From assembly GCA_015066665.1 (NCBI GenBank), contig SVNX01000016.1:1-52483 (forward strand): a stretch of 52,483 bases of DNA. The letters are read 5' to 3'. Below, piece after piece: positions 11,128 through 36,920 of the stretch. The position numbers and the translations under genes are program-made. Source of the DNA: Ruminococcus sp. GTDB taxonomy: Bacteria > Bacillota > Clostridia > Oscillospirales > Ruminococcaceae. The notes under the pieces were generated by a model that saw only the letters and a program-made list of their open reading frames with translations, searched no databases and was not told the DNA's origin. Every line of letters starts with the position of its first letter. Positions within the stretch are counted from its first letter, which is position 1.

Positions 11128-11129
11128 AC

Positions 11130-17578: not shown

Positions 17579-17595
17579 AGAATTACAGAAAAGCG

Positions 17596-17647: not shown

Positions 17648-17668
17648 CTCAGATGCGGCAAACAGTTT

Positions 17669-17851: not shown

Positions 17852-17945
17852 TTTGACACCATTCCATTTTACCCCTATACAGTGCACAGAGCATCCGGAA
17901 ATATTCGGGTGCTTTTGTGTTATCATTTTTCCAGAGGTGGTGACC

Positions 17946-18404
17946 TTGAATGAACAGAATCTGATTCGGCCGGAGGATTTAACACCGAGCGAACGCCGAG
18001 AGAATGCTTCCAAAGCGGGCAAGGCATCCGCTGCGGCCAGACGGCGGCGAAGGGACATGAAAGCCAAGATGAAGATGATTCTTGGGCTGCCGGTCTCTGA
18101 CTGTGATAATTTCAACACTTTGGCAGTGATGGGCATTGCGCCGGAGGAAATCGACAACGAGACCCTGATGCTTGTCGGGCTGTTCCGCAAGGCCATGAAC
18201 GGCGATGTACAGGCCGTCCGTGAGGTGCGGAACATCCTCGGCAAGGACAATGATACAGAGCGTCTGAAACTCCAGAAGCAGCAGCTTGCCCTGCAGGAGA
18301 AGAAACTGGAAGGTGATGTGGCTGCTGACCTTCCGGATGACGGTTTCCTGGAAGCTTTGAGCGGTACTGCCGCAGCAGATTGGAGCGATGCGGATGAAAC
18401 CTAA
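17946..18404 (+). CDS. terS: Phage terminase small subunit
   Basis: The probable start is TTG at 17946, 7 bp after GAGGT (MNEQNLIRPEDLTPSERREN); no good in-frame ATG exists nearby. The 152-residue protein has a basic N-terminus (AARRRRRDMKAKMKMIL), a helical middle and a Gln/Leu-rich coiled-coil-like stretch (LKLQKQQLALQEKKLEGD). Such proteins recognise the phage packaging site and hand DNA to the large subunit, whose gene overlaps it. The assignment rests on size, composition and position. Confidence 0.78.
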   Translation: MNEQNLIRPEDLTPSERRENASKAGKASAAARRRRRDMKAKMKMILGLPVSDCDNFNTLAVMGIAPEEIDNETLMLVGLFRKAMNGDVQAVREVRNILGKDNDTERLKLQKQQLALQEKKLEGDVAADLPDDGFLEALSGTAAADWSDADET

Positions 18405-22977: not shown

Positions 22978-23158
22978 CATCTCTGATATTCCTGAGAACA
23001 AAAAAATTGACGAGTATCCTGATGAAACAGAATTTGTTATGCAGGATCGATTTCCTCGTTACCAGCTTGACCCATTTGAAATCATATTGCCAAATGACCC
23101 CAGATATGCTTCCGCTCTTAGCAGAGAAGAACTTGAAACAATGAAAAATAATGATTAA
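22970..23158 (+). CDS. Small acidic protein, possible partner or immunity factor of the head protein's C-terminal domain
   Basis: This 62-residue acidic protein, MINISDIPENKKIDEYPDET..., starts within the end of the head-protein gene (after GGGAGGGG) and shares its low-GC character, unlike the scaffold gene after it. A terminator follows at once. Its size, tight coupling and base composition fit a gene acquired together with the JAMM-like domain. Immunity or inhibitor function is conjecture; no family recognised. Confidence 0.6.
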   Translation: MINISDIPENKKIDEYPDETEFVMQDRFPRYQLDPFEIILPNDPRYASALSREELETMKNND

Positions 23159-23182
23159 ACCGCCCTTAAACAGGCGGTTTTC
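23158..23182 (+). terminator. Terminator after the head-protein module
   Basis: Stem AACCGCC/GGCGGTT with an 8-nt loop followed by TTTTCTT, located immediately after the small acidic gene and before the scaffold gene. Confidence 0.7.
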
Positions 23183-23215
23183 TTATACCCAAATCCAAGA
23201 AAGCGAGGTCAAACT

Positions 23216-23746
23216 ATGAAGAACTTATTCCGCATCCCCATGCAGTTCTTTGCCGAGCCGGCTGAGCCGGATCCTGCACCCGCACCGGATCCTGCTCCGT
23301 CAGATTCCAAGCCCGACAATGAACCTGCTTCCGCTCCCGATCCCGCACCGGATGTCCCATCCGCTGAGGAACTGGAGGCCTTCCGCAAATGGCAGGCATC
23401 CCAGCAGTCGGAGTCGGAGAAGCATGCCGCAGCCATCAAAAAGGCGGAGAGTGCAAAGACAGCCGCCGAGAAGAGAGCCGCTGCCGCTGAGCTGAAGCTG
23501 ACAGCCTTTTCCAAGGGTGTGACAGCGGAGGCTGTTGACGACGTGATTGCACTTGCCAAGAGCAGGATTTCAGATAAAGTGACCGCAGAACAGGCGATTG
23601 ATGAAATCGTCAAGAAGTACCCTGCCTTCACTGCATCCGTTAAGCCGGGTATTACCACGGGCGTGAGAACCGGCGGCAATACCCAGCCTGCCGCATCAGC
23701 AAAGGCAATCGATATCATCCGTGCCGAACAGGTAAAACGCAGCTAA
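23216..23746 (+). CDS. Phage capsid scaffold protein (DUF4355-like)
   Basis: The 176-residue protein fits the DUF4355 scaffold family: a conserved-looking N-terminus (MKNLFRIPMQFFAE), a Pro/Asp-rich repeat region (AEPDPAPAPDPAPS), a central coiled coil (about 65-105, KKAESAKTAAEKRAAAAEL) and a C-terminal part that would contact the capsid protein (YPAFTASVKPGITTGVRTGG). It assists procapsid assembly and is normally lost from mature heads. It lies just before the major capsid gene. Confidence 0.85.
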   Translation: MKNLFRIPMQFFAEPAEPDPAPAPDPAPSDSKPDNEPASAPDPAPDVPSAEELEAFRKWQASQQSESEKHAAAIKKAESAKTAAEKRAAAAELKLTAFSKGVTAEAVDDVIALAKSRISDKVTAEQAIDEIVKKYPAFTASVKPGITTGVRTGGNTQPAASAKAIDIIRAEQVKRS

Positions 23747-23763
23747 GAAAGTGAGGACTATTT

Positions 23764-24702
23764 ATGCCGTATCTGAAGGACGAACTCTCCGGCTTTGTAC
23801 CGGAGGACATTGCAACTGACATCATCAAGGATGTCGCAAGAGGCTCCAGCATCATCCGTCTGTCCAAGGCAGAGGAGATGAAGAGCGACGAAAAGAAGAT
23901 CCCTGTGATGACCGATGGCCCCGGTGCATACTGGGTCGGTGAGGGTGAACGCATCCAGACTTCCACGGCGCAGTGGATTTATCCCAAGCTCGTGGCAAAG
24001 AAGCTGGGTGTCATCATTCCCGTCACAAAGGAGAAGCTCGAGGATACAACCATCGACGTATTCAGCGAGCTCAAGCAGCACATCGCCGAGGCATTCTACA
24101 AGACCATTGACGCAGCCTGCATCTTCAAAACAAGCTCACCCTTTGAGACGTCCCTTATCACAGCGATTGAGGAAGCGGGCAACACCATCACAAATACGGG
24201 CAAGTTTGACATCGTGGTGTCCGATCTCATGTCTGCTGTCGAGGAAGACGGCTTCGATGTGGACGGCTTTACCGCTGACATCGGCGTAAAGGGCACCCTG
24301 AGAAAGCTCCGTGACGATAACGGTGCGGCGCTCTTTGTAGAGGGCACAAACCAGAGAGAGCTGTATTCCCAGCCCATCGAGTTCGTGCGCAACGGTGCAT
24401 GGGACAAGGCGAAGGCAACCATCATCGGCGGTGAGTGGAAGTACTCGCTCTTTGGCCTCAAGCAGGGCATTGAGTATGAGATTCTGAAGGAAGCCACCCT
24501 CCAGAACACTGTCGATGCAGACGGCAAGCCTATTTCCCTGGCTGAACAGGACATGATCGCCATCAAGGCCACCATGCGTGTGGGTTATCTCTGCGTCAAG
24601 GGCGATGCCTTTGCGGCCATCGTCCCCGAGGGCGCTGCAGCGGCTCCCGATGAAGGCGATGAAGGAGATGAAGGCGATGAAGGTGAGGAAGGTGCAGCAT
24701 AA
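23764..24702 (+). CDS. Major capsid protein, HK97 fold
   Basis: The 312-residue protein (MPYLKDELSGFVPEDIATDI...) has the usual segments of HK97-type capsids of Gram-positive siphophages: VMTDGPGAYWVGEGERIQTS and VAKKLGVIIPVTKEKLEDTT, and a C-terminal MIAIKATMRVGYLCVKGDAFA strand. The last 17 residues are an acidic Gly/Asp/Glu repeat (DEGDEGDEG) encoded by an imperfect 9-bp DNA repeat; this tail is unusual and could be surface exposed. TAATG overlap with the next gene. Confidence 0.92.
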   Translation: MPYLKDELSGFVPEDIATDIIKDVARGSSIIRLSKAEEMKSDEKKIPVMTDGPGAYWVGEGERIQTSTAQWIYPKLVAKKLGVIIPVTKEKLEDTTIDVFSELKQHIAEAFYKTIDAACIFKTSSPFETSLITAIEEAGNTITNTGKFDIVVSDLMSAVEEDGFDVDGFTADIGVKGTLRKLRDDNGAALFVEGTNQRELYSQPIEFVRNGAWDKAKATIIGGEWKYSLFGLKQGIEYEILKEATLQNTVDADGKPISLAEQDMIAIKATMRVGYLCVKGDAFAAIVPEGAAAAPDEGDEGDEGDEGEEGAA

Positions 24703-25073
24703 TGCTGGACTTCTACAAGAATGAATGGCACGGCAGTTTTTCCGGCACGGATGAGGCACTTTCCCTGCTTCTCTCCCGTGCTGCGGATATTGTGGACTGT
24801 GCCATTTTCCCGAGTGGCTTCACAGTAGAGGAGATTCCTGTGCTGTTCCGCCGAAGCGTGTACAGCGCAGTCTGTGCGCAGGCTGACCGCATCGACAGTA
24901 TGGGCGGTGCGGAGAGCCTGACGGAAAGCGGATACAGTTCGGTGACGCTTGGCAAATTCAGTTATTCTGAGGGCAGCAGCACACAGAGCAGCGATGCTTT
25001 CTCGCTCTGCGCCCTTGCCAAGGGCTATCTCGAGTCCGTGGGGCTGCTCTACAGAGGGGTGGCGGTCATGTGA
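24702..25073 (+). CDS. Head-tail connector protein
   Basis: The 123-residue, mostly helical protein sits directly after the capsid gene. Position and size match the gp6/gp15-type adaptor that attaches below the portal. It overlaps the capsid stop (TAATG) and the next start (GTGA). Confidence 0.75.
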   Translation: MLDFYKNEWHGSFSGTDEALSLLLSRAADIVDCAIFPSGFTVEEIPVLFRRSVYSAVCAQADRIDSMGGAESLTESGYSSVTLGKFSYSEGSSTQSSDAFSLCALAKGYLESVGLLYRGVAVM

Positions 25074-25399
25074 AACCAATTCCGAAGCGGCTGCTCATCC
25101 ATTCTGCATCGCTCCATGGCGTGACGGAGGATGTCTGGCAGAAAGAATCACTTACAACGATTGCAGAGCTCTGCCGGATCCGCATTGAGCCGATGACAAA
25201 GCTCATCACAGATAAGCAGAACCGGCAGTGCACACTGTCGGTGATGCTGTTCTATGACTGCCGGAACAGTGCTCCGCAGGGTGTACAGTTCGAGGTGGGA
25301 CAGAAGCTCTTGTGGAACGGCACAGAATACCGTGTCGAAACCGTTGAGCCGCTCTATGACGGAGCACGGCTGCATCATCTGGAGGTGGGACTTGTCTGA
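25070..25399 (+). CDS. Putative minor capsid / head closure protein (Minor_capsid_1-like)
   Basis: The 109-residue product starts with GTG. The ending (GVQFEVGQKLLWNGTEYRVETVEPLYD) resembles the stopper protein family listed as Minor_capsid_1. In this family the protein closes the portal channel after packaging. The next gene starts at its stop codon. Confidence 0.78.
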   Translation: MKPIPKRLLIHSASLHGVTEDVWQKESLTTIAELCRIRIEPMTKLITDKQNRQCTLSVMLFYDCRNSAPQGVQFEVGQKLLWNGTEYRVETVEPLYDGARLHHLEVGLV

Positions 25400-25842
25400 T
25401 GGATGTGAGAATGAACATCAATCTCGGTGCAATCGAGAAGAAGCTGCAGAAGGCGGCGGACAAGGCAGTGTACATCACTGCGGAAAAGGCACTGGAGGAC
25501 AGCAACAAATATTGCCCGAAGGATCAGGACGGTCTCATCAACAGCAGTCTGACCTTTTCTGAACCGGAAAAAGGAATTATCCGCTGGACAGAACCCTATG
25601 CAAGGGCTCTGTACTATGGCGTGGTCATGGTGGATCCGGAAACCGGAAAAGCCTGTTTCTTCATCGATGACCAGCCATATTCCCGCAAGGGTGTGAAGAA
25701 AGTGAAGAGCGATCCGGAGCGGGAATACCAGTTTGCCAATGGCCGCCGCAAGCTCTGGGCACAGTATGCACACAGCAAGCACGGCAAGGAGTGGCTTGAG
25801 ACATTCCGTGCAGCCATGCGGCAGGCAGCAAAGGAGGGCTGA
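25399..25842 (+). CDS. Putative minor capsid protein (Minor_capsid_2-like)
   Basis: A 147-residue protein with the family-like segment ALEDSNKYCPKDQDGLINSS and a downstream WTEPYARALYYG motif. These features, plus the order between Minor_capsid_1-like and _3-like genes, identify it as a head-tail joining protein comparable to HK97 gp10. Confidence 0.82.
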   Translation: MDVRMNINLGAIEKKLQKAADKAVYITAEKALEDSNKYCPKDQDGLINSSLTFSEPEKGIIRWTEPYARALYYGVVMVDPETGKACFFIDDQPYSRKGVKKVKSDPEREYQFANGRRKLWAQYAHSKHGKEWLETFRAAMRQAAKEG

Positions 25843-25843
25843 T

Positions 25844-26200
25844 ATGCTCGGAACCATACTGGAATACGCAGCGAGGCTCACGGGCGCATCCATCGGCCAG
25901 TTGCCTGCAAAGGGCGGCATTTCCGTCGAGCCTGCCCCTGCATCGTCCGGAGAGACCTATCTCGACGGCACCAGCAGTGACAATGCGTCGCTGCTTTTTT
26001 TGTGCAAATCCAAGGGGCAGCGGGACGCACTCGATCAGCTGTGCGGCATCTGCGGCAAGCTTACAAGAACCAGACACCATCCCCATGGTATCTACCATGT
26101 CCATGTGTCCACATATCCGAATTATGTCTCACGGGATGGTGACTTCTGGGTCTATTCGTGTATCATCAACCTGAAATACTACAACAAGGAGGACTTTTAA
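25844..26200 (+). CDS. Putative minor capsid / tail terminator protein (Minor_capsid_3-like)
   Basis: The start is MLGTILEYAARLTGA at 25844. The 118-residue product fits the tail-completion family (SLLFLCKSKGQRDALDQLCG; YHVHVSTYPNYVSRDGDFW). It probably caps the tail tube before head joining. It ends at the start of the tail tube gene. Confidence 0.8.
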   Translation: MLGTILEYAARLTGASIGQLPAKGGISVEPAPASSGETYLDGTSSDNASLLFLCKSKGQRDALDQLCGICGKLTRTRHHPHGIYHVHVSTYPNYVSRDGDFWVYSCIINLKYYNKEDF

Positions 26201-26662
26201 ATGCCGGAAAATGTAAAACCCGATATTTCGCTGAACTATGACTATCGGTTTGAAATCAACACAACACCGGAGAGCGATACAGCCACAATGGCTGAGGTCG
26301 CCAAGGGCTTTGACAATGTGTCCGAGGCACTCAACGAGGTGCTCTATCAGGGTTCCTTCCTGGGCGACGGCGGCTATGGTTCCAGCTTTGTGACCGGCGG
26401 CCAGCTCATTGTGACACTGTCCGGTGTTCGCATGGTCGGCGATCCCGCACAGGACTATATGTTCGGTGACGCCGTCTACTACAACTGGGGCAAGGCGAGA
26501 GAGACCGATATCAGGATGTACTGTCCGGACGGCGCAGTGATTACCTGTCCTGTGACGCTTGCCAAGATCACCCGCTCGGGCGGTGCAGCCAACAATGCCA
26601 CCGCTGTGTCTCTGGAAATCCATTTCAATGGCAAGCCGGAGGTTGTGACGGAAACTGAATAA
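26201..26662 (+). CDS. Major tail tube protein
   Basis: The 153-residue protein starts MPENVKPDISLNYDYRFEIN. Size, position between the tail terminator and the tail chaperones, and a beta-rich sequence (TGGQLIVTLSGVRMVGD) make it the tail tube subunit. It is followed by a strong terminator or attenuator, typical of highly expressed tail tube genes. Confidence 0.8.
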   Translation: MPENVKPDISLNYDYRFEINTTPESDTATMAEVAKGFDNVSEALNEVLYQGSFLGDGGYGSSFVTGGQLIVTLSGVRMVGDPAQDYMFGDAVYYNWGKARETDIRMYCPDGAVITCPVTLAKITRSGGAANNATAVSLEIHFNGKPEVVTETE

Positions 26663-26666
26663 CAGA

Positions 26667-26690
26667 AGCACTCCGAAAGGGGTGCTTTTT
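26667..26690 (+). terminator. Terminator/attenuator after the tail tube gene
   Basis: An 8-bp stem AGCACTCC/GGGGTGCT closed by a GAAA tetraloop and followed by TTTTT. It likely lowers expression of the downstream tail genes relative to capsid and tail tube. Confidence 0.85.
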
Positions 26691-26716
26691 ATATTTTAAC
26701 GAAAAGGAGAATTTCT

Positions 26717-27121
26717 ATGGCATATCAGATCAAGAGACCGGAGCGTATTGTGGAGGATCTGGAACTGATGGCAGAGTCCGATCATCCCGCAATGATCATC
26801 CACATTGATATCAACCCCGAAGCGATGGCAAGGGATTACCGCAGACTTGAGTTGACACTCGCCAAGGCTAAGCAGGCAGGGGATATGGCATCATTTGAGA
26901 AGGCTGCAGGGGATCTGTTTACACTCATCTGCGGTGAGGAGGCCGTGGAGAGGATCCTTGCTTACTTTAAGGGCTCCTATGTGGACATGACGGCAGCACT
27001 GCTGCCGTTTGTGTTTGACTGCATCAAGCCTGCGGTGGAACGCTATGTGCAGAGCCGCAGGGAGATCCTTGCAAACAATACATGTCTGAACCGCCGTCAG
27101 CGCAGAAAGATCGGCTTATGA
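26717..27121 (+). CDS. Tail assembly chaperone (first of two)
   Basis: The 134-residue, charged, helical protein lies just before a Gp15-family gene and the tape measure, the standard place of the tail assembly chaperone. AAAAGGAG precedes the ATG. Its stop overlaps the next start as ATGA, and the two frames differ by -1, so a programmed frameshift product is conceivable, though no strong slippery site is obvious. Confidence 0.72.
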   Translation: MAYQIKRPERIVEDLELMAESDHPAMIIHIDINPEAMARDYRRLELTLAKAKQAGDMASFEKAAGDLFTLICGEEAVERILAYFKGSYVDMTAALLPFVFDCIKPAVERYVQSRREILANNTCLNRRQRRKIGL

Positions 27122-27705
27122 TGTTTGATCTCACTAGGACGCTCCCTGACAGCATTGTTTTCGAGGGGAAAAGGTGGCGTCTCAGACTCGCCTTCAATAC
27201 CGTGCTTGAAGTGCTCGCCTTGCTGAAGGATCCTGTGCTGTTTGACAGGGAAAAACAGACGCTTGCCCTTGCCATGCTCTGCAGGGACAAGAATCCGCCG
27301 CCGGATCTCTTGTCTGCAATCTTCGATGAATGCATCAGCTTTACGAAGAAAACGGAACATCAGGGGCTTCGCTGTGTAGATTTTCTGCAGGATGGAGCCT
27401 ATATCTATGCATCATTCATGGCAGATTACGGCATCGACCTGACTACTGAGCGGGACAACCTCCACTGGTGGCAGTTTATGGCACTGTTCCAAGGCCTGTC
27501 TGAGAAAACAAAAATGCGGGAGGTCATGCGCATCCGTCGTGAACCAATCCCGCATGCCAATAAGCACAACGGCGAGTACATCGCAAACCTGATTTCCCTC
27601 AAGCAGTACTATGCCCTCGATATCTCGCAGGAGGAACGGGAGCAGAATTTCCGCAGGGGTCTTGCAGGTCTTGCAGATGCACTGAAGGCAAGAGCTGAAG
27701 CATAA
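27118..27705 (+). CDS. Bacteriophage Gp15-family tail chaperone
   Basis: Start MMFDLTRTLPDSIVFEGKRW at 27118. The 195-residue product fits the Gp15 family (N-terminal VFEGKRWRLRLAFNTVLEVL, then DRDNLHWW-like TERDNLHWWQFMALFQGL, and a C-terminal QEEREQNFRRG). Family members act with the preceding gene in tape measure folding. No good ribosome binding site is visible, consistent with coupling or frameshifting. Confidence 0.85.
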   Translation: MMFDLTRTLPDSIVFEGKRWRLRLAFNTVLEVLALLKDPVLFDREKQTLALAMLCRDKNPPPDLLSAIFDECISFTKKTEHQGLRCVDFLQDGAYIYASFMADYGIDLTTERDNLHWWQFMALFQGLSEKTKMREVMRIRREPIPHANKHNGEYIANLISLKQYYALDISQEEREQNFRRGLAGLADALKARAEA

Positions 27706-27719
27706 AGGAAGGTGATGCT

Positions 27720-30458
27720 ATGCCGGAAAATCAGGCAGCAGACGGCGAGGTTGTCTATCGTGTCCGTGCTGACACCAGTGATCTGAAGAAGGATCTGAAG
27801 GAATCTGAACAGGCGGCAAGACGATCGGCGGGGACTGTAGAAAACACCCTCGGGGTCGTGGAGGATGCCGCAGAGGAAGCAGCAGACAGCATGGCCGGAG
27901 CCATGAGAGAAGCCGCAGAAGCCATCGCAGATGCTGCGGATGCCGCTGCAGAGTCGGCGGAGGGACTGGGCGAATCAGCAGACGGTGCATCGGATCCTGT
28001 CAAAGGGTTCGGCGATGAGACCGAAAAAACCAGAAAGAAAACAAAATCCTTTGCGGAAGAGCTGGATGATATCAATGAGCTGCTGGAAAAGAACAGCAAG
28101 AATGCGGTTCTGACCGCCCAGAAAAAGAAAGTCCTTGCTGAGGCTGTGGAACAGACCACACGAGAGCTTGACGATCTGAAGGAAAAGCAGCAGGAAGTTG
28201 ACAGAGCCTATCAGGCAGGAGAAATCCCTGACGAAGAATATCGGGCATTCCAGCGACAGATCATTGCCACGGAGCAGGAACTGCAGAACTACCGTGAAGA
28301 ACTGGAGAAGGTCGGTAAAGCATCCGAAGAGGTCGCAGAGAAAACAGAAGGCGGCCTCAGCGATGCCCTCAGTTCTGTCGGCGGGGCACTCGGAACAGCA
28401 GGAAAAGTAGCCGGCGGTACGGTGCTTGCCGTGGGAGCGGCAGTCGTAGCCGGAGGCGTGGCAGCAGTCAATGTGGCGAATGATCTTGACAAGGCCATGA
28501 ACAGCTTCACTGCCTCCACAGATGTGGCTGTGGAGGATATGGACCGGTATCGTGCGGTTATGGAGGACATCTATACCGACAATTTCGGCGAGAACTTTGA
28601 GGATATTGCGGCATCACTTGCACTTGTCAGGAAGAATCTTGGCGACATGAACGACGCCGATCTTACCCGTGTTACGGAAGCGGCTATCATGCTCAATGAC
28701 ACATTTGAGTATGACATTGTCGAGACCACCCGTGCTGCCAAGGCCATGATGGACAGCTTCGGCATCAACGGCTACAATGCCATGGGGCTGATTGCTGCGG
28801 GTGCGCAGAATGGTCTTGACTATTCCGATGAACTGATTGACAGCATTTCCGAGTATTCCGTGCAGTTTGCAAAGTTCGGTTTTACTGCGGACGACATGTT
28901 CCACATCATGGAAAAGGGCGCAGAATCCGGTGCATGGTCGCTTGATAAGATCGGCGATGCAGTCAAAGAACTTTCCATCAGAGCGATTGATGGCTCGGAT
29001 GGGACAACCGCAGGCTTCGAGGCAGTCGGGCTCAGTGCCGATGCCATGAGTGCCAAGTTCGCACTCGGCGGCGATGCAGCAAAGACTGCGTTCTATGAGA
29101 CGGTGGAAGCACTCGGGGCACTGGATGATCCCCTCGCACAGAACACCGCAGGCGTGGCACTGTTCGGCTCAATGTGGGAGGATCTGGGAACGGATGCCGT
29201 GACGGCACTTAACGAGATCGGCAGTGGCATCTACAACACAGAGGACGCCCTCGGTAAGATCAATGAGGTCAAATATGACGACCTCGGATCTATGTTTGAG
29301 GCATTGAGCCGCACGCTGGAAATGGTCATCCTGCCGATCGGCGAGGCCCTGATTCCGGTGCTGAACGAATTGCTCGAAGAGATTCTGCCGCTTCTGGAAA
29401 ATTCGCTTGGCCCCATTGCAGAGCGTTTTCTGGACCTGATCGACCCGATTCTAACCCTTGCCAAAGAAGCGATTGAACCACTGGCAGCAGAGTTCGAGAA
29501 ACTGGTCAGCGGAGAACTCCTGCCCTATCTGATCGAAACGCTTCTGCCGGAGCTGAAAAACATCGGCGAATCACTGAAACCGTTTTTTGAAGAATTCAAA
29601 ACGGATATTCTGCCAAGGCTGACGGAACTTCTTACAGGCTTGTCCAAGGAAATTCTAACCCTTATTACTGACCTCCTGCCGCCCCTGCTGGATGTTGTCA
29701 TGGCACTGCTTCCTGTGTTTCTGGATCTGGCAGAGATGCTCATCCCGATACTGGTTGATATTTTGAGAGAACTTGCTCCTGTCATTCAGGACCTTGTCCC
29801 CATCATCGAGCTCCTGGCCGAATACCTCGGTATCTCCCTGAAAGCCGCCATTGAGATGGTCATGCCTGTCATTGAGGACTGCATGGAGATCATTGCCATG
29901 CTTGGTGACTCTTGGGCGGCGGCAGCTGATCTCATCAATGCCATCATTGAGGGGGACTGGAAGACCATGTGGGCAAGTGCTGGGAAAATTTTCGAAAACG
30001 CCATGAACGGGCTGCCTATGATTGCAGAAACAGTGCTGAATCTGCTTGTCGGGATGCTGAATGCGTCCATCAATGGCATTAACATGGTGACCGGCAAATT
30101 CGGCATTGACGCCATCCCCAACATCCCCGTGGTCAAGCTGCCGAAATTCCACACGGGCGGCATCATCGATTATGAAATGGGAGCAGAAGTGCCCATCCTT
30201 GCGCAAAGCGGGGAGATGGTGCTGACGCAGGCACAGCAGCGGCGCCTTTTTGAAATCGCAAACGGGCTTACTGTTCAGCCGGAAAAGCATTTGTCTGCGC
30301 TGGATCCCACTGACACTGTGGAAGGGGAGCAGCCTGTTGTCAATTATTACATCCAGTTGCAGGTCGGTGAGGAAATCGTTGCCGATGCCGTCACAACCAA
30401 GGTGGACATGCAGCAGGGTGTGAATCTCGTACTGAAACAGAGGGGGCTTGCAAAATGA
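27720..30458 (+). CDS. Tape measure protein
   Basis: The 912-residue protein sets the tail length. The N-terminal 230 residues are Ala/Glu-rich coiled coil, followed by a hydrophobic glycine-rich segment (VGGALGTAGKVAGGTVLAVG, near 230) and a phage tape-measure core (MMDSFGINGYNAMGLIAAGAQ, FAKFGFTADDMFHIMEKGAE). Long amphipathic and hydrophobic helices with repeated Leu/Ile-Pro patterns follow (ILPLLENSLGPIAERFLDLI). Near the end is the common FHTGGIIDYEMGAEVPILAQ motif. AAGGAAGGTGATGCT precedes the ATG. At about 1.5 angstrom per residue the tail would be roughly 130-140 nm, a rule-of-thumb estimate. Confidence 0.93.
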   Translation: MPENQAADGEVVYRVRADTSDLKKDLKESEQAARRSAGTVENTLGVVEDAAEEAADSMAGAMREAAEAIADAADAAAESAEGLGESADGASDPVKGFGDETEKTRKKTKSFAEELDDINELLEKNSKNAVLTAQKKKVLAEAVEQTTRELDDLKEKQQEVDRAYQAGEIPDEEYRAFQRQIIATEQELQNYREELEKVGKASEEVAEKTEGGLSDALSSVGGALGTAGKVAGGTVLAVGAAVVAGGVAAVNVANDLDKAMNSFTASTDVAVEDMDRYRAVMEDIYTDNFGENFEDIAASLALVRKNLGDMNDADLTRVTEAAIMLNDTFEYDIVETTRAAKAMMDSFGINGYNAMGLIAAGAQNGLDYSDELIDSISEYSVQFAKFGFTADDMFHIMEKGAESGAWSLDKIGDAVKELSIRAIDGSDGTTAGFEAVGLSADAMSAKFALGGDAAKTAFYETVEALGALDDPLAQNTAGVALFGSMWEDLGTDAVTALNEIGSGIYNTEDALGKINEVKYDDLGSMFEALSRTLEMVILPIGEALIPVLNELLEEILPLLENSLGPIAERFLDLIDPILTLAKEAIEPLAAEFEKLVSGELLPYLIETLLPELKNIGESLKPFFEEFKTDILPRLTELLTGLSKEILTLITDLLPPLLDVVMALLPVFLDLAEMLIPILVDILRELAPVIQDLVPIIELLAEYLGISLKAAIEMVMPVIEDCMEIIAMLGDSWAAAADLINAIIEGDWKTMWASAGKIFENAMNGLPMIAETVLNLLVGMLNASINGINMVTGKFGIDAIPNIPVVKLPKFHTGGIIDYEMGAEVPILAQSGEMVLTQAQQRRLFEIANGLTVQPEKHLSALDPTDTVEGEQPVVNYYIQLQVGEEIVADAVTTKVDMQQGVNLVLKQRGLAK

Positions 30459-31156
30459 TCGGAATCGAAGTGAATGGTCTGCATTCGTGGTCGGCGTTCC
30501 GGTGCCGTGTGGCATCAAGGAACATCGGGCAGGCCAAAAAGAACCGCATTACAGAGCGGGTGCCCCACAGCAATGCAGTGTACAATTTCAGCACTATCTG
30601 CGGCGCACAGACCTATGGAGAACGTACATTAAAATATGTGCTGGTATTCCTGTGCGACAATGGGACGGAAGCCCGGAATCGCATCCGCTGCATCCGGAAT
30701 TGGTTGGATTACAGCGGATATCAGAAGCTCTATGACGACATGGAGCCAGATATTTATTACATGGCAGAAGCCACGGATGTGAATATCACAGAGCAGAACA
30801 ACCTGTACAAGATCAGTGTGACTTTTGCGGCTGAACCGCATGCATATCCCCGCTACCCCTCCACCCCCTCCACCAGCCGCTACCCAGACCTCAACGCCGA
30901 CGGCATTGTGGACGCCAATGACGGTGCCATTGCGCTGGCAGCGGCCGCTCAGATCGGGGCGGGCAATCCCTCCGGCCTGACACCGGAGCAGGAAGCCCTT
31001 GCCGACACTGACGGGGACGGCGTCCTCGATGCGGTCGATGCCAACAACATCATGCGTTTTGCCGCCCTTGCAGGTGCAGGCAACTACGATAACGATCAGG
31101 CAGGCTGGACACGATACATGAATGACCAGCTCGCACAGGAGGAGGGCATCATCTGA
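30455..31156 (+). CDS. Distal-tail-like phage protein carrying a type I dockerin domain
   Basis: A 233-residue protein directly after the tape measure (ATGA overlap). Residues 1-130 resemble a distal tail (Dit) component by position and beta-rich sequence. A Pro/Ser/Tyr linker follows (YPRYPSTPSTSRYP), then a dockerin-like module at 145-210. Loop 1 has D145, N147, D149, D153, D156 (DLNADGIVDAND); loop 2 has D184, D186, D188, D192, D195 (DTDGDGVLDAVD). Both have the exact 1-3-5-9-12 calcium-binding spacing of dockerins, each followed by a helix. The host encodes dockerin enzymes nearby (47491-52483). Binding to host scaffoldin cohesins is therefore a reasonable inference. Whether the module folds as a dockerin or a single EF-hand pair remains untested. 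Confidence 0.82.
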   Translation: MIGIEVNGLHSWSAFRCRVASRNIGQAKKNRITERVPHSNAVYNFSTICGAQTYGERTLKYVLVFLCDNGTEARNRIRCIRNWLDYSGYQKLYDDMEPDIYYMAEATDVNITEQNNLYKISVTFAAEPHAYPRYPSTPSTSRYPDLNADGIVDANDGAIALAAAAQIGAGNPSGLTPEQEALADTDGDGVLDAVDANNIMRFAALAGAGNYDNDQAGWTRYMNDQLAQEEGII

Positions 31157-32973
31157 TGTACGAAATTGATATCAGAAACGGCGTGACCACGCAGAAGCTC
31201 CACGAGCTGTCTCCCGACAGTCTCCAGCGTGCGGCATCCGGCCAGCTCACCGAAGAAGCGGGGCTGATTCCTGCCTTTACTTTTAGCGTATATCCCCAGA
31301 ACACCTGCTATGACGCACTCCGTGAGATGCAAACCTTTGTCACGCTGACCAACACCAAGACTGGCGAAGCGGAATTCCGTGGCCGTGTGCTTCGGATCAG
31401 CGATACCATGAACCAGAACGGCGTCATCGGAAAAACCGTCACCTGTGAGGGAGAGCTGGGCTATCTCTGCGACTCCTGCCTGCTCTACATGGACTATGGC
31501 ACGGTGGACATCCTCATTTTCCTCAATTCCGTACTCGCACGCCACAATGCCCTTGTGGCTGAGGCGCAGCAGATCAGGATGGGACAGTGCGACATCCATG
31601 GCGTGCTGCCCGTGAAGACCCTCGGGCGCAGGACACTCGAGGAAATCAAGGCGAATCTTGTGGATGTGCTCGGCGGTGAGCTGTCCATCCGTCATGTGGA
31701 TGGCGTGCGGTATCTGGACTACCTGAAGGCATCCGGCGTGCGCTCATCCGTGGCGATCGAGCTGACGAAGAATATGAAATCCCTCTCCCGCAGTCAGGAT
31801 GCCACCTCCATGATCACCCGTCTCATGCCCCTTGGTGCAAGGCTCAGCGACGAGACGGAGGAACGCCTGACCATTGCGGGCGTGAACATGAACTGCCCGT
31901 ATATCGACGATGTGACGGCTCTGGAAAAATACGGCGTCCTTTGCGGTGTGGCCGAGTTTGACGATGTCACAGACCCCGCCGTACTCATGGAGCGGGGCAG
32001 GGAGTACCTCGCACAGAATAACCGCATCAAAAAGGCATACCGTGTCGAGGCGCTCGATCTCTCCACGATCGGACTGGATCCGGCAGCCTTCCGGCTCTGC
32101 AATACGCATCCGGTGCGCAATCCCGTCATGGGCGTGGATGAGTGGCTGCGCATCTACAAGCGCACGGTGGACATCTACAAGCCCTACGCCCCCGCCCTCG
32201 AGTTTGGTGACAAGCAGGAGGCACTGACCGACCTGAATGTCCGGACAGCGAACTATATCAAGTATGAGGCTCCCCAGCAGCGCACCGAAATCCTGACGCT
32301 TGCCAAGGAAAACGCCACCGCCCTCATTCAGGCGGGCATCAAGGGCTATGTCGTCGTGAACGGCAATGAGCTCCTCGTCATGGACACCCCTGACAAGGCG
32401 ACTGCGCAGAAGGTCTGGCGGTGGAATACGGGCGGTTTTGGCTACAGCAGCACCGGCTATGACGGGACATACGGCACGGCCATCACCATGGACGGTGCCA
32501 TTGTGGCGGACTTTATCACAGCGGGCGTGCTGCGGGGCATCGAGATCACGAACGGCGACGGGACGTTCCGTGTGGATCCGGACGGCAACTGCTTTGCCGA
32601 GAGCATCAACATCACCGGCGGCAGCATCCATATCAACACGGGAGATGAGACCTACAGCGTCATTGAGCTCAACAGCGGGGCGTGGCATGCAAAATATGCC
32701 CCACTTGAATGGAGATTGTCGAATGACAGTACGGGTGCGGAAATTGTTGCACAAGCGGGTGCGATTTTCTTTTATCGGGGCGGGCAAAGCACAGCACATT
32801 TTTCTTCCGACGGTTTGATGCGATGCACGAGCATCACAGCCAGCGGCTCAGTAAGTTGCACGAGCATCACAGCCAGCGGCTCAGTAAGTTGCACGAGCAT
32901 TCTGTGTGACGAGCTGAAAGAAGAGCTGACCAATATCAAAGAGCGTATTGCCGCTCTGGAAGGAGGCACATAG
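31156..32973 (+). CDS. Phage tail-tip protein (tail-associated / Tal-like)
   Basis: The 605-residue protein (MYEIDIRNGVTTQKLHELSP...) fits the prophage tail hub family at this position: residues 1-400 contain NTKTGEAEFRGRVLRISDTM and RTLEEIKANLVDVLGGELSI. The C-terminus has a collagen-free beta-rich region (GGSIHINTGDETYSVIELNS) and two 11-residue copies encoded by 33-bp DNA repeats (32825-32890), then a coiled-coil stub (ELKEELTNIKERIAALE) that probably trimerises. It begins at the stop of the dockerin gene. Role: hub of the tail tip and platform for receptor-binding proteins. Confidence 0.85.
   Translation: MYEIDIRNGVTTQKLHELSPDSLQRAASGQLTEEAGLIPAFTFSVYPQNTCYDALREMQTFVTLTNTKTGEAEFRGRVLRISDTMNQNGVIGKTVTCEGELGYLCDSCLLYMDYGTVDILIFLNSVLARHNALVAEAQQIRMGQCDIHGVLPVKTLGRRTLEEIKANLVDVLGGELSIRHVDGVRYLDYLKASGVRSSVAIELTKNMKSLSRSQDATSMITRLMPLGARLSDETEERLTIAGVNMNCPYIDDVTALEKYGVLCGVAEFDDVTDPAVLMERGREYLAQNNRIKKAYRVEALDLSTIGLDPAAFRLCNTHPVRNPVMGVDEWLRIYKRTVDIYKPYAPALEFGDKQEALTDLNVRTANYIKYEAPQQRTEILTLAKENATALIQAGIKGYVVVNGNELLVMDTPDKATAQKVWRWNTGGFGYSSTGYDGTYGTAITMDGAIVADFITAGVLRGIEITNGDGTFRVDPDGNCFAESINITGGSIHINTGDETYSVIELNSGAWHAKYAPLEWRLSNDSTGAEIVAQAGAIFFYRGGQSTAHFSSDGLMRCTSITASGSVSCTSITASGSVSCTSILCDELKEELTNIKERIAALEGGT
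32825..32900 (+). repeat. 33-bp tandem repeat inside the tail-tip gene
   Basis: Two identical 33-bp units starting GCACGAGCATCACAGCC (32825-32857, 32858-32890) and 10 bp of a third. They encode the repeat CTSITASGSVS in the tail protein. Being a multiple of three, copy number can vary without frameshift. Confidence 0.9.
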
Positions 32974-32974
32974 T

Positions 32975-33325
32975 TTGAAATTCTACAAAGAACTCCCCTA
33001 TAGTGAGGCACTGGCAGGGGACACACTGGGGCCGTTCCGGATCGTGCCGGTGGTGGAGCAGGACGGGGAGCGCACACGCCTCGATGTGACAGGCTGCAGC
33101 ATGCAGCTGCTGCTTGCCTCGGAAGACAGACCTGCGGATGCGGTGCTGACGCTCGACTGCGAGATTGTGGACGGTGCCTTTGAGGTGACCGTGCTGAGCA
33201 GTGCGACAGCCGGACTGCGGGGCGGCTACCGGATGCACTTTGCACTGCGCAAGGGCGAAAAGGTGCACCGCAAGCTGATGGGCAGACTGTATTTCCATCC
33301 CGTCCCGCTGGGAGGTGCTGTATGA
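32975..33325 (+). CDS. Phage baseplate/tail-tip accessory protein
   Basis: The start is TTG at 32975 (MKFYKELPYSEALAG), 8-9 bp after GGAGG. The 116-residue, beta-rich protein has a Gly-X-Tyr segment (AGLRGGYRMHFALRKGEKVH) similar in style to BppU-type N-terminal domains. It lies between tail-tip and receptor-binding candidate genes. Family assignment is tentative. Confidence 0.65.
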   Translation: MKFYKELPYSEALAGDTLGPFRIVPVVEQDGERTRLDVTGCSMQLLLASEDRPADAVLTLDCEIVDGAFEVTVLSSATAGLRGGYRMHFALRKGEKVHRKLMGRLYFHPVPLGGAV

Positions 33326-33495
33326 GTGAGTTTGTAATCGGCCGCATTGATTTTGAGTTTGCACTCGGAACGGCAGCAGGGGAGAGCTCAGGCACCACCC
33401 TCCCCCACCCCGCCGCTGCATCGGCAGCGAGTCGGATTGCACCCATCCCCGATGTTCTCAGCGGCATCATGACCATGACAGAGGAGGCAACCTAA
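33322..33495 (+). CDS. Small phage structural-region protein
   Basis: A 57-residue ORF (MSEFVIGRIDFEFALGTAAG...) starting by ATGA overlap with the previous stop, with GGAGG upstream, and ending by TAATG overlap with the next gene. A short N-terminal beta part is followed by an Ala/Ser/Pro-rich middle. No family recognised; possibly a linker subunit of the tail tip. Confidence 0.55.
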   Translation: MSEFVIGRIDFEFALGTAAGESSGTTLPHPAAASAASRIAPIPDVLSGIMTMTEEAT

Positions 33496-34193
33496 TGGCA
33501 ATCACGAAACTGACGGCACAAACCACCGCCCAGGACATGACGCCCCTGCTCGACATCCTGCAGACACACGCCGTGCCCGCTTACTTTGACAGCGTTGAGC
33601 TTGTGGAGGGCGACACCAACCAGAGCATCAGCTGCAAGGTGGGCGGTACCGAGATTCTGCGCATCTGGGCGGATATCCTTGGTACGGGTACATCGACAAA
33701 CTACGGCTTTACCATCACCCACCCCGACGCCAGCACCACCCAGCTCTATGCGGGCTATGGCTCCACCGGCTACACCGACAGCGTCTATGTGTGCAGCAAC
33801 GCCCTGTTGCTCGTGCCACACAGCCAGACAAATAACGGCGTGGTGATCTGCAAGGATACGGGCGGTGCCACAGCACTGGCACTGTATACCATGGACAAGA
33901 GATCACAGCGGCATAACGGTTCACAGGGTATGAGTTACTCCGAGTCCACCTATGGCCTGTGGGCTGTTTCGGCAGCGGACACCGCACCGGCACCGTATAA
34001 CGTATACCTGAACAATGCCGACAGCGTCACCGGCTGTACAGCGCTGTGTCCCATCTACACGCAGACCGGCAGCCTGCAGCATGTCTGGCAGCCCTTGCAG
34101 CGACAGTTTGCAGAGGTGGCCGCACCGATGGTAACCGAGATGGACGGCAAGCGGTACCTGTGCACCCGTGGCTTTGTGATTCTGGATAGTTAA
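33495..34193 (+). CDS. Phage tail protein of unknown family, receptor-binding candidate
   Basis: The 232-residue product is rich in Thr, Ser, Gly and Tyr with predicted beta strands (NYGFTITHPDASTTQLYAGY, GSTGYTDSVYVCSNALLLV). It lies last before the lysis genes, a common place for receptor-binding proteins. The C-terminus (EMDGKRYLCTRGFVILDS) is frequent in small tail proteins of these phages. The role is inferred from position and composition only. Confidence 0.6.
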   Translation: MAITKLTAQTTAQDMTPLLDILQTHAVPAYFDSVELVEGDTNQSISCKVGGTEILRIWADILGTGTSTNYGFTITHPDASTTQLYAGYGSTGYTDSVYVCSNALLLVPHSQTNNGVVICKDTGGATALALYTMDKRSQRHNGSQGMSYSESTYGLWAVSAADTAPAPYNVYLNNADSVTGCTALCPIYTQTGSLQHVWQPLQRQFAEVAAPMVTEMDGKRYLCTRGFVILDS

Positions 34194-34211
34194 TAGTTAG
34201 GAGGTGGGAAT

Positions 34212-34598
34212 ATGCAGTATATGATTATGATTCTGATCGTGCTGGGGCTTGCGATCGCAGATTTTGCAACGGGCTACATCAAGGCCTATTGCACAAACAC
34301 GGTCAACAGCCAGAAGATGCGGCATGGCGGCATGAACAAGCTCGGCGAGCTGATTGTGATGCTGACAGCCTGCGGACTGGATATCGGCATCCATGCGCTG
34401 GGGCAGTATTATCAGGCGGCGGAGCTTGCGGAGATCGCAGGCGTGGTGACGGCATTTGCGGTGTTTGCGTATATCGTCCTGATGGAACTGGTGTCCATCC
34501 TCGAAAACTACGCCGCTGTCAATCCGGATGCGCAGTGGGCGGCACGGATGATTAAGCGGCTGAAGAGTGCGAATGAAGATGAGGAGGAAAACATATGA
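34212..34598 (+). CDS. Phage holin
   Basis: The 128-residue membrane protein starts with a hydrophobic segment (MIMILIVLGLAIADFATGYI, residues about 3-22), then a loop with NSQKMRHGGMNKLGEL, a second pair of segments (LIVMLTACGLDIGIHAL; VVTAFAVFAYIVLMELVSIL) and a charged tail (RLKSANEDEEEN). This matches the phage_holin_4 / toxin-secretion holin family. It forms the membrane lesion that releases the endolysin. AGGAGGTGGGAAT precedes the ATG. Confidence 0.9.
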   Translation: MQYMIMILIVLGLAIADFATGYIKAYCTNTVNSQKMRHGGMNKLGELIVMLTACGLDIGIHALGQYYQAAELAEIAGVVTAFAVFAYIVLMELVSILENYAAVNPDAQWAARMIKRLKSANEDEEENI

Positions 34599-35821
34599 CA
34601 AATCTCGAAAATTTAAAAAAGCTTGCGGAGGGTCTGGGTGCTGATGCGAGCAAGTCCAGCACGAATCTCAGTGCGCTGAACGTGATTTCTAAGGCGTTGG
34701 GCGGCTCGGGTGATGCGCAGACGAATGCGGAGGCGATCTTTGACATTGTAGGTGCATCTCTTGATGAAATGGCATCTCCTGCGATGCTGAAAGGCATCAT
34801 CGACCGCACTGTGACAGAGGTCGTGATTCCGGAGGGGACAACGGAAATCGGTTCATATAGCCTTTATTCATGCACTAATTTGGAAAATGTCCAGTTCCCT
34901 ACAACCGTATCCACCGTAAAAAACAATGCTTTTGCAGGATGCACAAGTCTGAAAGCAGCCAATTTTCTTGAAGGCGTTGAGAGCATCGGTGCAAGTGCTT
35001 TCGGCGGCTGTATGGCACTCGAAACGGTGACGCTCCCGAACAGCGTACACAGTATCGCAAGTTCGGCATTTGGTGGATGCGCTGCGTTGAAATCCTTTAA
35101 AGTCACAGAGGGGAGCAGCGACAATGTGACTATCCCTGAAAATGCAACAGGGATTAAAAGCAACACAATTTCCAGCGGAACAATGCTTGAAACTATTGAA
35201 ATTCCCGCCGCAATTGCGAAAATTGAAGCGGGGGCTTTTGCGGGTGCTACAAATGTAAAAACAATCAAGCTGTCCGCCGCATTGCATACAATCCATAACG
35301 TGCTCGGTGGAAACAACACAAGCCTGACTACAGTGACCACATCTTACGGAGCAGAAGTAAGTACTCCAGATGATGCGGTAGGCATGGTGGCAAGTTTTGC
35401 AGGGTGTTCGGCTCTTACCTATGCGGAAATCCCTGATGCGATCACAACAATTGGAGATTCTGCTTTTGCAGGATGCACAAAACTGGAGGCAGTCGTACTT
35501 CCGAAGAACCTCAAGGAAATCGCCCGTGATTCCGGAAACCCCTTTGCAGGTTGTCCGCTCAAAAGCATGAAAACAAGAGATAATCAGGATTCTGAATTTG
35601 ACATTGATTTCCCTGACGGATTTACAACGCTCTGCGATTTGGCACTTGCAGGGGCAAGCGGATTCACAAGCGTGCATTTTCCGTCCACTACAGCAAGCAT
35701 CGGTGCAAGTGCTTTCGGCGGCGTTTCCACGCTGACAAAGATCGTGATCGACAAACCCGAAAACAGCATCGAGGGCGCACCGTGGGGCGCTACGAATGCA
35801 ACGGTCAACTGGCTGGGCTAA
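34595..35821 (+). CDS. Phage-encoded leucine-rich-repeat protein (BspA-like LRR_5)
   Basis: The 408-residue protein has a helical N-terminal domain (residues 1-70, SALNVISKALGGSGDAQTNA), then tandem LRR_5 repeats of about 23 residues with the pattern IxxxAFxGCxxLxxVxLPxxVxxI (for example FAGCTSLKAANFLEGVESIG and FAGCTKLEAVVLPKNLKEIA). No signal peptide is seen, so it is more likely part of the virion or released at lysis than secreted. BspA-type repeats commonly bind proteins or glycans, so an adhesin or receptor-binding role is plausible. It is placed unusually between holin and amidase genes. Confidence 0.82.
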   Translation: MTNLENLKKLAEGLGADASKSSTNLSALNVISKALGGSGDAQTNAEAIFDIVGASLDEMASPAMLKGIIDRTVTEVVIPEGTTEIGSYSLYSCTNLENVQFPTTVSTVKNNAFAGCTSLKAANFLEGVESIGASAFGGCMALETVTLPNSVHSIASSAFGGCAALKSFKVTEGSSDNVTIPENATGIKSNTISSGTMLETIEIPAAIAKIEAGAFAGATNVKTIKLSAALHTIHNVLGGNNTSLTTVTTSYGAEVSTPDDAVGMVASFAGCSALTYAEIPDAITTIGDSAFAGCTKLEAVVLPKNLKEIARDSGNPFAGCPLKSMKTRDNQDSEFDIDFPDGFTTLCDLALAGASGFTSVHFPSTTASIGASAFGGVSTLTKIVIDKPENSIEGAPWGATNATVNWLG

Positions 35822-35852
35822 AAACAAAACGAAGCGGAAGGAAGAATGAACT

Positions 35853-36563
35853 ATGGGAAAAATCTGTTTTATCGTAGGACACGGCGAATCCAAAAGCGGC
35901 GGCTATGATCCCGGCGCAGTTTCCGGCGGCTTCCATGAATTCAAGATCGCCCGGGAAATTGTGCGATATGCAACGGAGTATTACAACAAAACATACACCG
36001 AAGCAGCGGAACCGATGAACTATAATGGCAATCTGTACTTGACAGAGAGGATCAAGGCCGTCAATGCTGACAGTTATGATTTTGTTGCAGAAGTCCACCT
36101 GAACGCCGGTGGCGGAACCGGCACTGAATGCTTTTACCACATCGGCAGCAGTGAGGGCAAGAGATACGCAGAAGCCATCACAAAGGCAATTGCAGCGGCT
36201 TTCGGAGTGAAGAACCGTGGCGCAAAGACAAAGGCAAATTCAAGCGGAAAGGATTATTTTGCAATCATCCGTGAAACAAAGCCCACGGCGGTTTTGATTG
36301 AAACGCTGTTCATTGACTCTTCCGACCTAAAGCACCTTGACGAAACAGCAGAACAGAAGAAATGCGGTGAAGCCATTGCAAAGGCTGTTGCAGAAGTCAG
36401 GGGCGCAAAAAAGAAGGCTGTGACCGATGCCACAGCAACAACGGAGCCGGGCAAGCTGTACCGTGTACAGGTGGGCGCATTTGGCAAGCGTGAGAATGCG
36501 GAAGCGATGATGCAGAAGCTTAAAGCGGCCGGATTCGGCGATACAATCATCAAAGAATCTTAA
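35853..36563 (+). CDS. Endolysin: N-acetylmuramoyl-L-alanine amidase (amidase_3) with SPOR domain
   Basis: The 236-residue lysin cuts the bond between muramic acid and L-Ala. The amidase_3 fold shows the zinc His10 in FIVGHGESKSGGYDPGA, a downstream His in AEVHLNAGGGTGTE and the catalytic Glu in AVLIETLFIDS. The C-terminus (about 200-236, LYRVQVGAFGKRENAEAMMQ) is a SPOR-like domain that binds denuded glycan strands, an uncommon cell-wall module for a phage lysin. It has no signal peptide and so needs the holin. Confidence 0.92.
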   Translation: MGKICFIVGHGESKSGGYDPGAVSGGFHEFKIAREIVRYATEYYNKTYTEAAEPMNYNGNLYLTERIKAVNADSYDFVAEVHLNAGGGTGTECFYHIGSSEGKRYAEAITKAIAAAFGVKNRGAKTKANSSGKDYFAIIRETKPTAVLIETLFIDSSDLKHLDETAEQKKCGEAIAKAVAEVRGAKKKAVTDATATTEPGKLYRVQVGAFGKRENAEAMMQKLKAAGFGDTIIKES

Positions 36564-36716
36564 AAAGAGTTGTCAAAGATTGAAAATCAGTTGTCAAACT
36601 TGCAAACTATTTGAAAATCTTTCGAAAAGATTTCAAATCCCGTGAAATTTGAAAGGAAATCACGAGATAGGCACGAGATAATTTCAAAATCACATGGTTT
36701 TGAGATGTAAAACAAG

Positions 36717-36751
36717 ACCGGCAGGGGAATCAATCCTCTGCCGGTTTTTTG
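36717..36751 (+). terminator. Terminator of the prophage late operon
   Basis: The stem ACCGGCAG/CTGCCGGT followed by TTTTTTG, downstream of the lysis genes. Confidence 0.85.
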
Positions 36752-36768
36752 TTTAGAAATAGGTACAA

Positions 36769-36790
36769 GTGTCGCAGTAAGTGTCGCACT
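36769..36790. promoter_or_regulatory. Tandem GTGTCGCA repeats, possible integrase arm-type sites (right)
   Basis: GTGTCGCAGT (36769-36778) and GTGTCGCACT (36781-36790) repeat with a 12-bp period and match the pair beside attL (1805-1824). Inferred integrase arm sites. Confidence 0.5.
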
Positions 36791-36797
36791 AAACAAA

Positions 36798-36832
36798 ACA
36801 GCCGTCCTTCCGAAAAGAAGAACGGCTATTCT
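36798..36832 (-). terminator. Terminator of the tRNA-Pro gene
   Basis: Read leftwards, AGCCGT.CTTC...GGAAG.ACGGCT forms a stem followed by GTTTTGTTT, 13 bp past the tRNA 3' end. As it lies inside the prophage, it is the terminator provided by the phage. Confidence 0.65.
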
Positions 36833-36844
36833 GTGTTATAAAAC

Positions 36845-36891
36845 TGGTCTGAGTGACGGGACTTGAACCCACGGCCTCTACCACCCCAAGG
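36845..36891. repeat. attR core (47-bp direct repeat)
   Basis: Identical to 1653-1699. It covers the tRNA 3' end up to the anticodon region; the rest of the tRNA (36892-36920) is original host sequence. Confidence 0.9.
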
Positions 36892-36920
36892 TAGCGCGCT
36901 ACCAACTGCGCCACACCCAG
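36845..36920 (-). tRNA. tRNA-Pro (anticodon GGG), prophage integration site
   Basis: A 76-nt tRNA with encoded CCA. The acceptor stem pairs CTGGGTG with CACTCAG, the D-arm has AGTTGGTAG, the anticodon stem CTACC/GGTAG carries loop TTGGGGT (anticodon GGG), and the T loop is TTCAAGT. Its 3' 47 nt are duplicated at attL (1653-1699); the functional copy is reconstituted at the right end of the prophage. Confidence 0.95.

Follow-up and report, generated by a model that had tools for sequence, protein, structure and literature searches.

In the evolved distal tail (Dit) proteins (evoDits) of siphophages that infect Gram-positive bacteria, added sugar-binding domains help adsorption, as set out in the available sections of two reports (PMC9863714; PMC10688798). 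Here, we describe a Dit whose added domain holds no carbohydrate-binding module and matches dockerins; it is encoded by a prophage at 30455-31156 of a 52,483-nucleotide stretch of Ruminococcus sp. DNA (contig SVNX01000016.1 of assembly GCA_015066665.1), which was analyzed at its full length and is called the window below. Like an evoDit, the window's protein consists of a Dit plus an extra domain that would be exposed at the tail tip, but the extra domain of an evoDit is a carbohydrate-binding module with a polysaccharide target, whereas a dockerin is expected to have a protein target. With the classical Dit, SPP1 gp19.1 (PDB accession number 2x8k), it shares the N-terminal fold and the place between tape measure and Tal; the C-terminal domain of gp19.1 is unmatched, and the window's protein has the dockerin there.

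On the dockerin side, the closest solved structure by both profile and fold comes from the group-4 dockerins of Ruminococcus flavefaciens FD-1 (e.g., ScaH), which have two similar repeats, as the window's module seems to have by eye. Related host dockerins sit on leucine-rich repeat (LRR) proteins, on cohesin-dockerin (Coh-Doc) proteins, and at the end of a scaffoldin, whereas the window's module sits in a phage tail protein, has an extra C-terminal helix, and shows Ala-Asn and Ala-Val instead of Gly-Arg. Gene 40 of Vibrio phage VvAW1 has been likened to a “dockerin type I cellulosome protein” and is, as here, a dockerin-like phage gene; the accessible part of that report names neither a tail role nor a link to cohesins (PMC3558961). 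The accessible text of a digester study reports dockerins in bacterial genomes, and that of an E. coli phage study presents a modeled sugar-binding module. None of the titles and abstracts listed in our searches of open-licence papers describes a phage-tail dockerin. Dits, evolved Dits, and dockerins are already known, and what appears to be new is a dockerin on a phage tail protein.

Architecture and identity of the Dit-dockerin protein

The N-terminal part is recognizable as a Dit by profile (phrog_33, E value of 9.5e-10 over residues 4 to 131; Sipho_tail, 25.1 bits, barely above the cutoff of 24.2), by fold (Foldseek recovers the Dits of a monocin tip [9j1k], SPP1 [2x8k, E value of 2.7e-7], and NF5 [9m8o]), and by gene position: its open reading frame (ORF) overlaps that of the tape measure by 4 bases, and the Tal ORF starts at 31156. 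The dockerin seems to replace a Dit C-terminal domain, because a dockerin-less Dit (locus L137) matches phrog_33 over residues 2 to 232, and the Dits of genomes G107 and G303 finish with a different sequence of similar size.

A preliminary description, made from the DNA letters alone, held that the protein ends in two calcium loops with dockerin spacing (D145/N147/D149/D153/D156 and D184/D186/D188/D192/D195), and both loops are indeed present at these residues. It also placed a Pro/Ser stretch between the loops, which was mistaken, as that stretch (residues ~130 to 141) connects the Dit domain to loop 1. The layout is that of a dockerin, with two 12-residue calcium loops that each run into a helix (the spacing in the family being ~20 to 40 residues). 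A search for the paired-loop pattern gives a single match across all six frames of the window and none in 200,000 shuffles of residues 131 to 233, and the two repeats agree, by eye, at 11 of 26 residues (145 to 170 versus 184 to 209).

The profile match is weak for this copy alone and stronger once its relatives are included. Dockerin_1 gives the window's protein 19.6 bits (E value of 0.001) in hmmscan, below the cutoff of 22.9, and in the genome search 22.7 bits, or 24.6 bits with the neighboring matches in frame; EF-hand_6 gives 11.9 bits (E value of 0.2) in hmmscan. Across the IMG/VR virus records searched (26 of 38 loci, described below), Dockerin_1 exceeds its cutoff in all 26, although 3 that hold the window's own sequence do so only by counting neighbors. 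A profile built from 10 fusions and compared with solved structures matched 17 sequences at an E value of ≤0.1, led by 8ajy_B, “Dockerin from ScaH” (E value of 3.7e-8), and followed by two entries titled serine protease and then by clostridial and ruminococcal dockerins. Structure prediction agrees: the AlphaFold model (alignment of 27 fusions; mean pLDDT of 85, pTM of 0.58) has helices at residues 154 to 168, 177 to 183, 193 to 207, and 215 to 225, and its C-terminal part superposes on 8ajy_B (TMt of 0.80, rmsd of 2.0, 78 columns, E value of 2.3e-4). That match ranks 17th and is the sole dockerin named among the best 50 Foldseek rows. We take 8ajy to be a ScaH-ScaE complex.

A generic EF-hand was considered and rejected, given the lower EF-hand_6 score and profile and fold matches that are dockerins. 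Once the relatives are included, these comparisons make the assignment to the dockerins appear clear, and the earlier proposal of a dockerin domain in a tail protein of a cellulosome-type host's prophage draws support from the profile and fold matches, from sequence conservation, and from the genes of the host.

Spread, variation, and selection

The fusion is more widespread than first claimed, extending to at least 46 loci, and the module occurs in four further kinds of protein. In a sample of 38 genomes of the genus, the matches listed include at least 10 full-length fusions in 7 genomes, as the preliminary description had proposed to look for in other Ruminococcus prophages. Two of them lie in the window's own genome, the second (C34:6018-6725) between ORFs of 1004 and 638 amino acids that are tape measure- and Tal-like by position. 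A sample of 396 genomes of the family yielded 5 fusions in 4 genomes (two in G000 and one each in G056, G294, and G328); the matches listed there comprise 9 Dit relatives in 8 genomes, 5 with the dockerin and 4 without. A scan of named genomes found at least 22 loci, namely, 13 full Dit fusions (L083 to L095, titled Ruminococcus sp., R. flavefaciens, Clostridiales, or Lachnospiraceae), 4 with the module outside a Dit (one a fragment), and 5 with a dockerin match only. Of 38 loci from IMG/VR, 33 are Dit fusions and 5 bear the module in another protein; 5 contigs of this collection contain an ORF identical to that of the window. The Dit fusions of these two scans, at least 46 loci in collections that overlap (e.g., L083 and L109), represent at least 32 different proteins. 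Among the 50,697 records of INPHARED, a composite module query had no match at an E value of 0.01, and matches to the full-length protein, found in 25 records, are confined to residues 1 to 133.

The other carriers, typed by PHROG and Pfam searches of L137, L140, L029, and L048, are all tail-region proteins, so that with the Dit, five kinds of protein carry the module: (a) a protein starting as phrog_1084, located between Dit and Tal, that the module ends (L137, alike in L136, L138, and L141; a viral scan with the 204-amino-acid L137 protein matched only itself); (b) a phrog_13879 protein of unknown function with the module within it (L140); (c) a phrog_18805 protein with the module directly ahead of LRR_5 repeats (L029, alike in L030, L031, and L046, with cut copies in L047 and L051); and (d) a coiled-coil protein that the module terminates and that adjoins a tape-measure end (L048). 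Type (c) also exists without the module in PV036433 and PV036441, phages listed for Ruminococcus sp. from human feces, where a gap of ~94 residues falls exactly at the module site, a clean insertion. Dockerins adjoin LRR repeats in host LRR proteins as well as in this phage protein.

All 43 module rows close with a W/F-x-x-F/Y motif, whereas host dockerins mostly end otherwise; one host dockerin, at ~87.6 kb of C32, comes near it. In a tree of modules (86 rows, 69 columns, with many open forks and a long-branch warning; its host rows are 40 of 52, limited to those covering the module, and a further 3 from G008 and G018), the window's module branches beside a host clade (support of 96/92). The tree does not unite the phage modules in one clade, and non-Dit modules are scattered among those of Dits, which led us to reject a single capture followed by descent.

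The dockerin domain is under purifying selection. D145, G150, D156, D184, D188, G189, and D195 are invariant in 30 different fusions, and dN/dS of the dockerin is 0.07 to 0.17 among the six pairs that lie closest together (dS of <0.6 for the dockerin). Over the 40 usable pairs, its median is 0.25 and its maximum is 0.48, with a median of 0.30 for the Dit; these are 40 of 435 pairs, not independent of each other, filtered for a dS of 0.1 to 1.8 in both parts and drawn from 30 of the 32 different fusions (without L086 and L139; L128 is truncated at its 5′ end). Of 63 core positions compared among the full-length module rows (38 of 43), position 11 of loop 2 (residue 194) is the most variable, and position 11 of loop 1 (residue 155) ranks fifth. 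Both presumably correspond to dockerin recognition positions, at which the variability may reflect diversifying recognition on one reading and loose constraint on another. The mutated dockerin residues are numbered 11/12 and 50/51 in the accessible text of PMC5301203.

Host cohesins and the proposed role of the module

The preliminary description had expected dockerin enzymes on the chromosome around the prophage and cohesins in the host, and both were found. An esterase and a GH43 protein with dockerins lie on the same contig (Table 1), and the genome has 89 dockerin matches (including the two phage Dits) and 8 cohesin matches, of which 6 are above the cutoff, with a cluster of multi-cohesin scaffoldins on C32. 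Host dockerins fall into two classes, one enzyme-like and one symmetric. The symmetric class occurs on surface proteins, LRR proteins included, and terminates the large scaffoldin; the phage modules group with it and apart from the enzyme class (split support of 96/97). A Coh-Doc protein of a related genome (G008), with a dockerin of the symmetric class, matches 8ajy_B (E value of 1.1e-6); the whole host scaffoldin compared with PDB did not match the ScaH dockerin, its best match being 5n5p_A (E value of 0.0025). According to the accessible parts of two studies of FD-1, ScaE, a protein attached to the wall by sortase, is the binding partner of group-4 dockerins (those of ScaB, CttA, ScaF, ScaH, ScaI, and a peptidase) (PMC5301203; PMC2930009), and Gly-Arg occupies the recognition positions in several of these dockerins, among them ScaH, ScaB, and CttA (PMC5301203).

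We consider it probable that the phage Dit carries a working dockerin that binds displayed host cohesins with calcium and holds the virion on its host during infection. On this account, the dockerin sits on the tail-tip ring protein, where other Dits bear a different C-terminal domain; since the Dit is a hexamer, as the available text of PMC9863714 describes for Dits, the virion would display six dockerins around the tail tip. These would bind, in a calcium-dependent manner, cohesins on scaffoldins displayed by the host, the likeliest partners being those that accept symmetric dockerins, the kind borne by surface proteins and scaffoldins. The virion would then stay on the proper host cell while Tal and the other tip proteins finish infection. 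By analogy with evolved Dits, we infer an adhesion module whose ligand is a protein rather than a sugar; cohesin binding, the identity of the cohesin, and a part for the module in adsorption or infection are inferred likewise.

Each of the 26 virus records (14.5 to 49 kb, mostly fragments) holds exactly one dockerin; none has a cohesin at an E value of 0.1, and none is present in the window among the matches of the genome search. A phage-encoded cohesin was therefore rejected as the partner, and a cohesin partner would have to be the host's. The sequence evidence suggests that virions may use host cohesins as a receptor, an idea made more likely by the recurrence of the module in five kinds of protein and in 26 virus records without a cohesin. 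Protein receptors are known for few phages of Gram-positive bacteria, according to the available text of PMC9863714.

The distribution of cohesins was compared with that of the fusions, with small numbers, kinship not removed, and counts taken among the matches listed. A cohesin match is present in at least 139 of the 396 family genomes and at least 37 of the 38 genus genomes. The four fusion-bearing family genomes have 8, 9, 10, and 11 matches, a count of at least 8 being reached in 25 of 396; the chance that all four fall in that set is 1.3e-5 among all 396 genomes and 0.015 among the 139 with cohesins. Genomes whose Dits lack the dockerin have 3 (G053), 2 (G107), or no matches (G303 and G075; the Dit match of G075 contains an internal stop). 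Among module-bearing genomes of the genus, the matches listed number 8 (G000), 10 (G002), 8 (G008), 6 (G024), 4 (G028), 4 (G029), and 2 (G030).

Several points weigh against a cohesin receptor. Three more module-bearing genomes, all incomplete (G003, G004, and G011), have one cohesin match each among the matches listed; a rich cohesin set is thus not found in every module-bearing genome of the genus, several of which are incomplete. This copy falls below the Dockerin_1 cutoff in hmmscan, and its recognition positions read Ala-Asn and Ala-Val, without the Gly-Arg of group-4 dockerins (among 30 fusions, 1 has Arg at residue 155 and 4 have it at residue 194). In FD-1, most dockerins of LRR proteins, which the phage module resembles, bound none of the cohesins tested, as stated in the accessible text of PMC5301203. 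A ScaE-type anchor cohesin was not found in this 77%-complete genome, PF00963 giving no additional match at an E value of 10, and PF00963 may miss such cohesins. Finally, the Dit is structural, and the real receptor-binding protein might be a different one.

Four other explanations were weighed. In the first, which we regard as unlikely, the dockerin also binds host cohesins but serves to station virions on cellulosomes that have been shed or lie on plant fiber, where new hosts will settle, and another receptor serves infection. It shares the evidence for cohesin binding, the host scaffoldins do lie in a multi-cohesin cluster, and Tal or the 232-amino-acid ORF at 33495 could carry receptor binding; however, the phage modules are similar to the dockerins of scaffoldins and surface proteins, not to the enzyme class that loads cellulosomes. 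About equally unlikely is a dockerin-derived, calcium-stabilized structural part of the tail tip, with a phage protein or a non-cohesin molecule of the host surface as its partner. The location of the module in structural proteins, the extra C-terminal motif common to phage modules, and the missing group-4 recognition residues would all fit, but a structural need does not explain why the module occurs in five unrelated kinds of protein and is missing in close relatives of one, and the full-length fusions of the family sample occur in cohesin-rich genomes. It is improbable that lysis frees virions or unassembled Dit to fill cohesins, thereby blocking rival phages or disturbing the host cellulosome. 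A host cohesin partner would be needed here too; against this reading, copy number per virion is low, the gene lies in the tail operon, and no secretion signal is evident in the sequence. Chance, an assembly error, or a decaying functionless fusion, to which the weak Dockerin_1 score of this copy might point, is dismissed by the identical ORFs in 5 IMG/VR contigs, the 32 different fusions among the matches listed, the selection seen in the six closest pairs, and the shuffles. The preferred explanation, a dockerin that binds displayed host cohesins, is directly testable, because binding between such small modules as cohesins and dockerins is a routine measurement.

Some further cohesin-like matches were observed. 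In a likely lipoprotein (by eye; C34:37410-38246 of G000 and L052:7411-8247), the end of the protein aligns with the cohesin profile over its first half alone (2 to 59 of 139), and the stretch ahead of this match resembles, by eye, the second half; the protein is perhaps a circularly permuted, membrane-anchored cohesin. Similar partial matches occur in ORFs of ~300 amino acids in many genomes of the genus, among the matches listed. A weak cohesin match (25.0 bits) also lies in a long ORF at C36:27640-31608 of G000 that starts like a Ser/Thr kinase and has PASTA-like repeats (by eye). The search for a ScaE-type anchor also found no LPXTG motif when ORFs on the relevant strand were examined in five regions of G008, G002, G024, and G018 (the G002 region stops within the scaffoldin).

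Prophage setting and significance

With an integrase, primase/helicase (PHROG search), terminase, portal, head and tail genes, and flanking repeats, the prophage looks complete in outline (Table 1).

Table 1. Features of the prophage, the Dit-dockerin protein, and neighboring host genes in the window
Feature	Position	Strand	Evidence or remark
Prophage	1653..36891		~35 kb between exact 47-bp repeats 1653-1699 and 36845-36891
Phage integrase	1828..2955	-	phrog_1, E value of 7.8e-63
Terminase large subunit, portal, minor head, major head, and major tail protein genes	18388..26662	+	PHROG
Tail tape measure protein	27720..30458	+	PhageMin_Tail, E value of 9.9e-21; phrog_1272, E value of 3.7e-88
Dit-dockerin fusion, 233 amino acids	30455..31156	+	ATG start
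Dit domain, residues 1-129	30455..30841	+	phrog_33; Foldseek
Pro/Ser linker, residues 130-141	30842..30877	+	Sequence; low pLDDT at 136-139
Putative dockerin calcium loop 1, residues 145-156, then helix 154-168	30887..30922	+	
Putative dockerin calcium loop 2, residues 184-195, then helix 193-207	31004..31039	+	
Extra C-terminal helix, residues 215-225	31097..31129	+	W/F-x-x-F/Y motif of phage modules
Tal (Prophage_tail, tail-associated) protein	31156..32973	+	PF06605, E value of 1.6e-25; phrog_3558, E value of 1.8e-105
Holin, LRR_5 protein, amidase endolysin	34212..36563	+	
tRNA-Pro(ggg) gene, attachment site	36845..36920	-	Contains right-hand 47-bp repeat
Host protein: esterase, CBM_4_9, dockerin	47491..50460	-	Same contig, beyond prophage; Dockerin_1, 40.8 bits
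Host protein: GH43, CBM_6, dockerin	50584..52461	-	Dockerin_1, 34.3 bits

The early region of the prophage also encodes a phage C5 cytosine DNA methyltransferase (6961-8544), and the LRR_5 protein between holin and amidase (34595-35821) is of the BspA type. In this genome, both prophages that carry a dockerin encode 232-amino-acid tail-region proteins of unknown kind (33495-34193 of the window and L042:2839-3534) that are 90% identical and sit within 1214 bases of 90% identical DNA, whereas their Dits are 45% identical, which points to recent exchange between the two. Just beyond the prophage, adjoining ribosomal protein genes (by eye), lies a likely mobile element (38270-46575) with a tyrosine integrase (by eye), a Mob_Pre relaxase (39528-40796), and an N6-methylase of restriction-modification type (43032-45488).

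A broader proposal, which we advance tentatively and with somewhat less than even confidence, is that the cohesin-dockerin plug of cellulosome-making Ruminococcaceae of the gut serves their phages as a receptor system. The phage-type dockerin would be an adhesion cassette distributed among unrelated tail proteins, tracking cohesin specificity by variation at the recognition positions, so that the specificity classes of cellulosomes would be partly phage-driven. If the dockerin binds, a major fiber-degrading machine of the gut doubles as a virus handle, linking phage predation to cellulosome architecture, and the module may bear on why ruminococci maintain several classes of dockerin and cohesin specificity.

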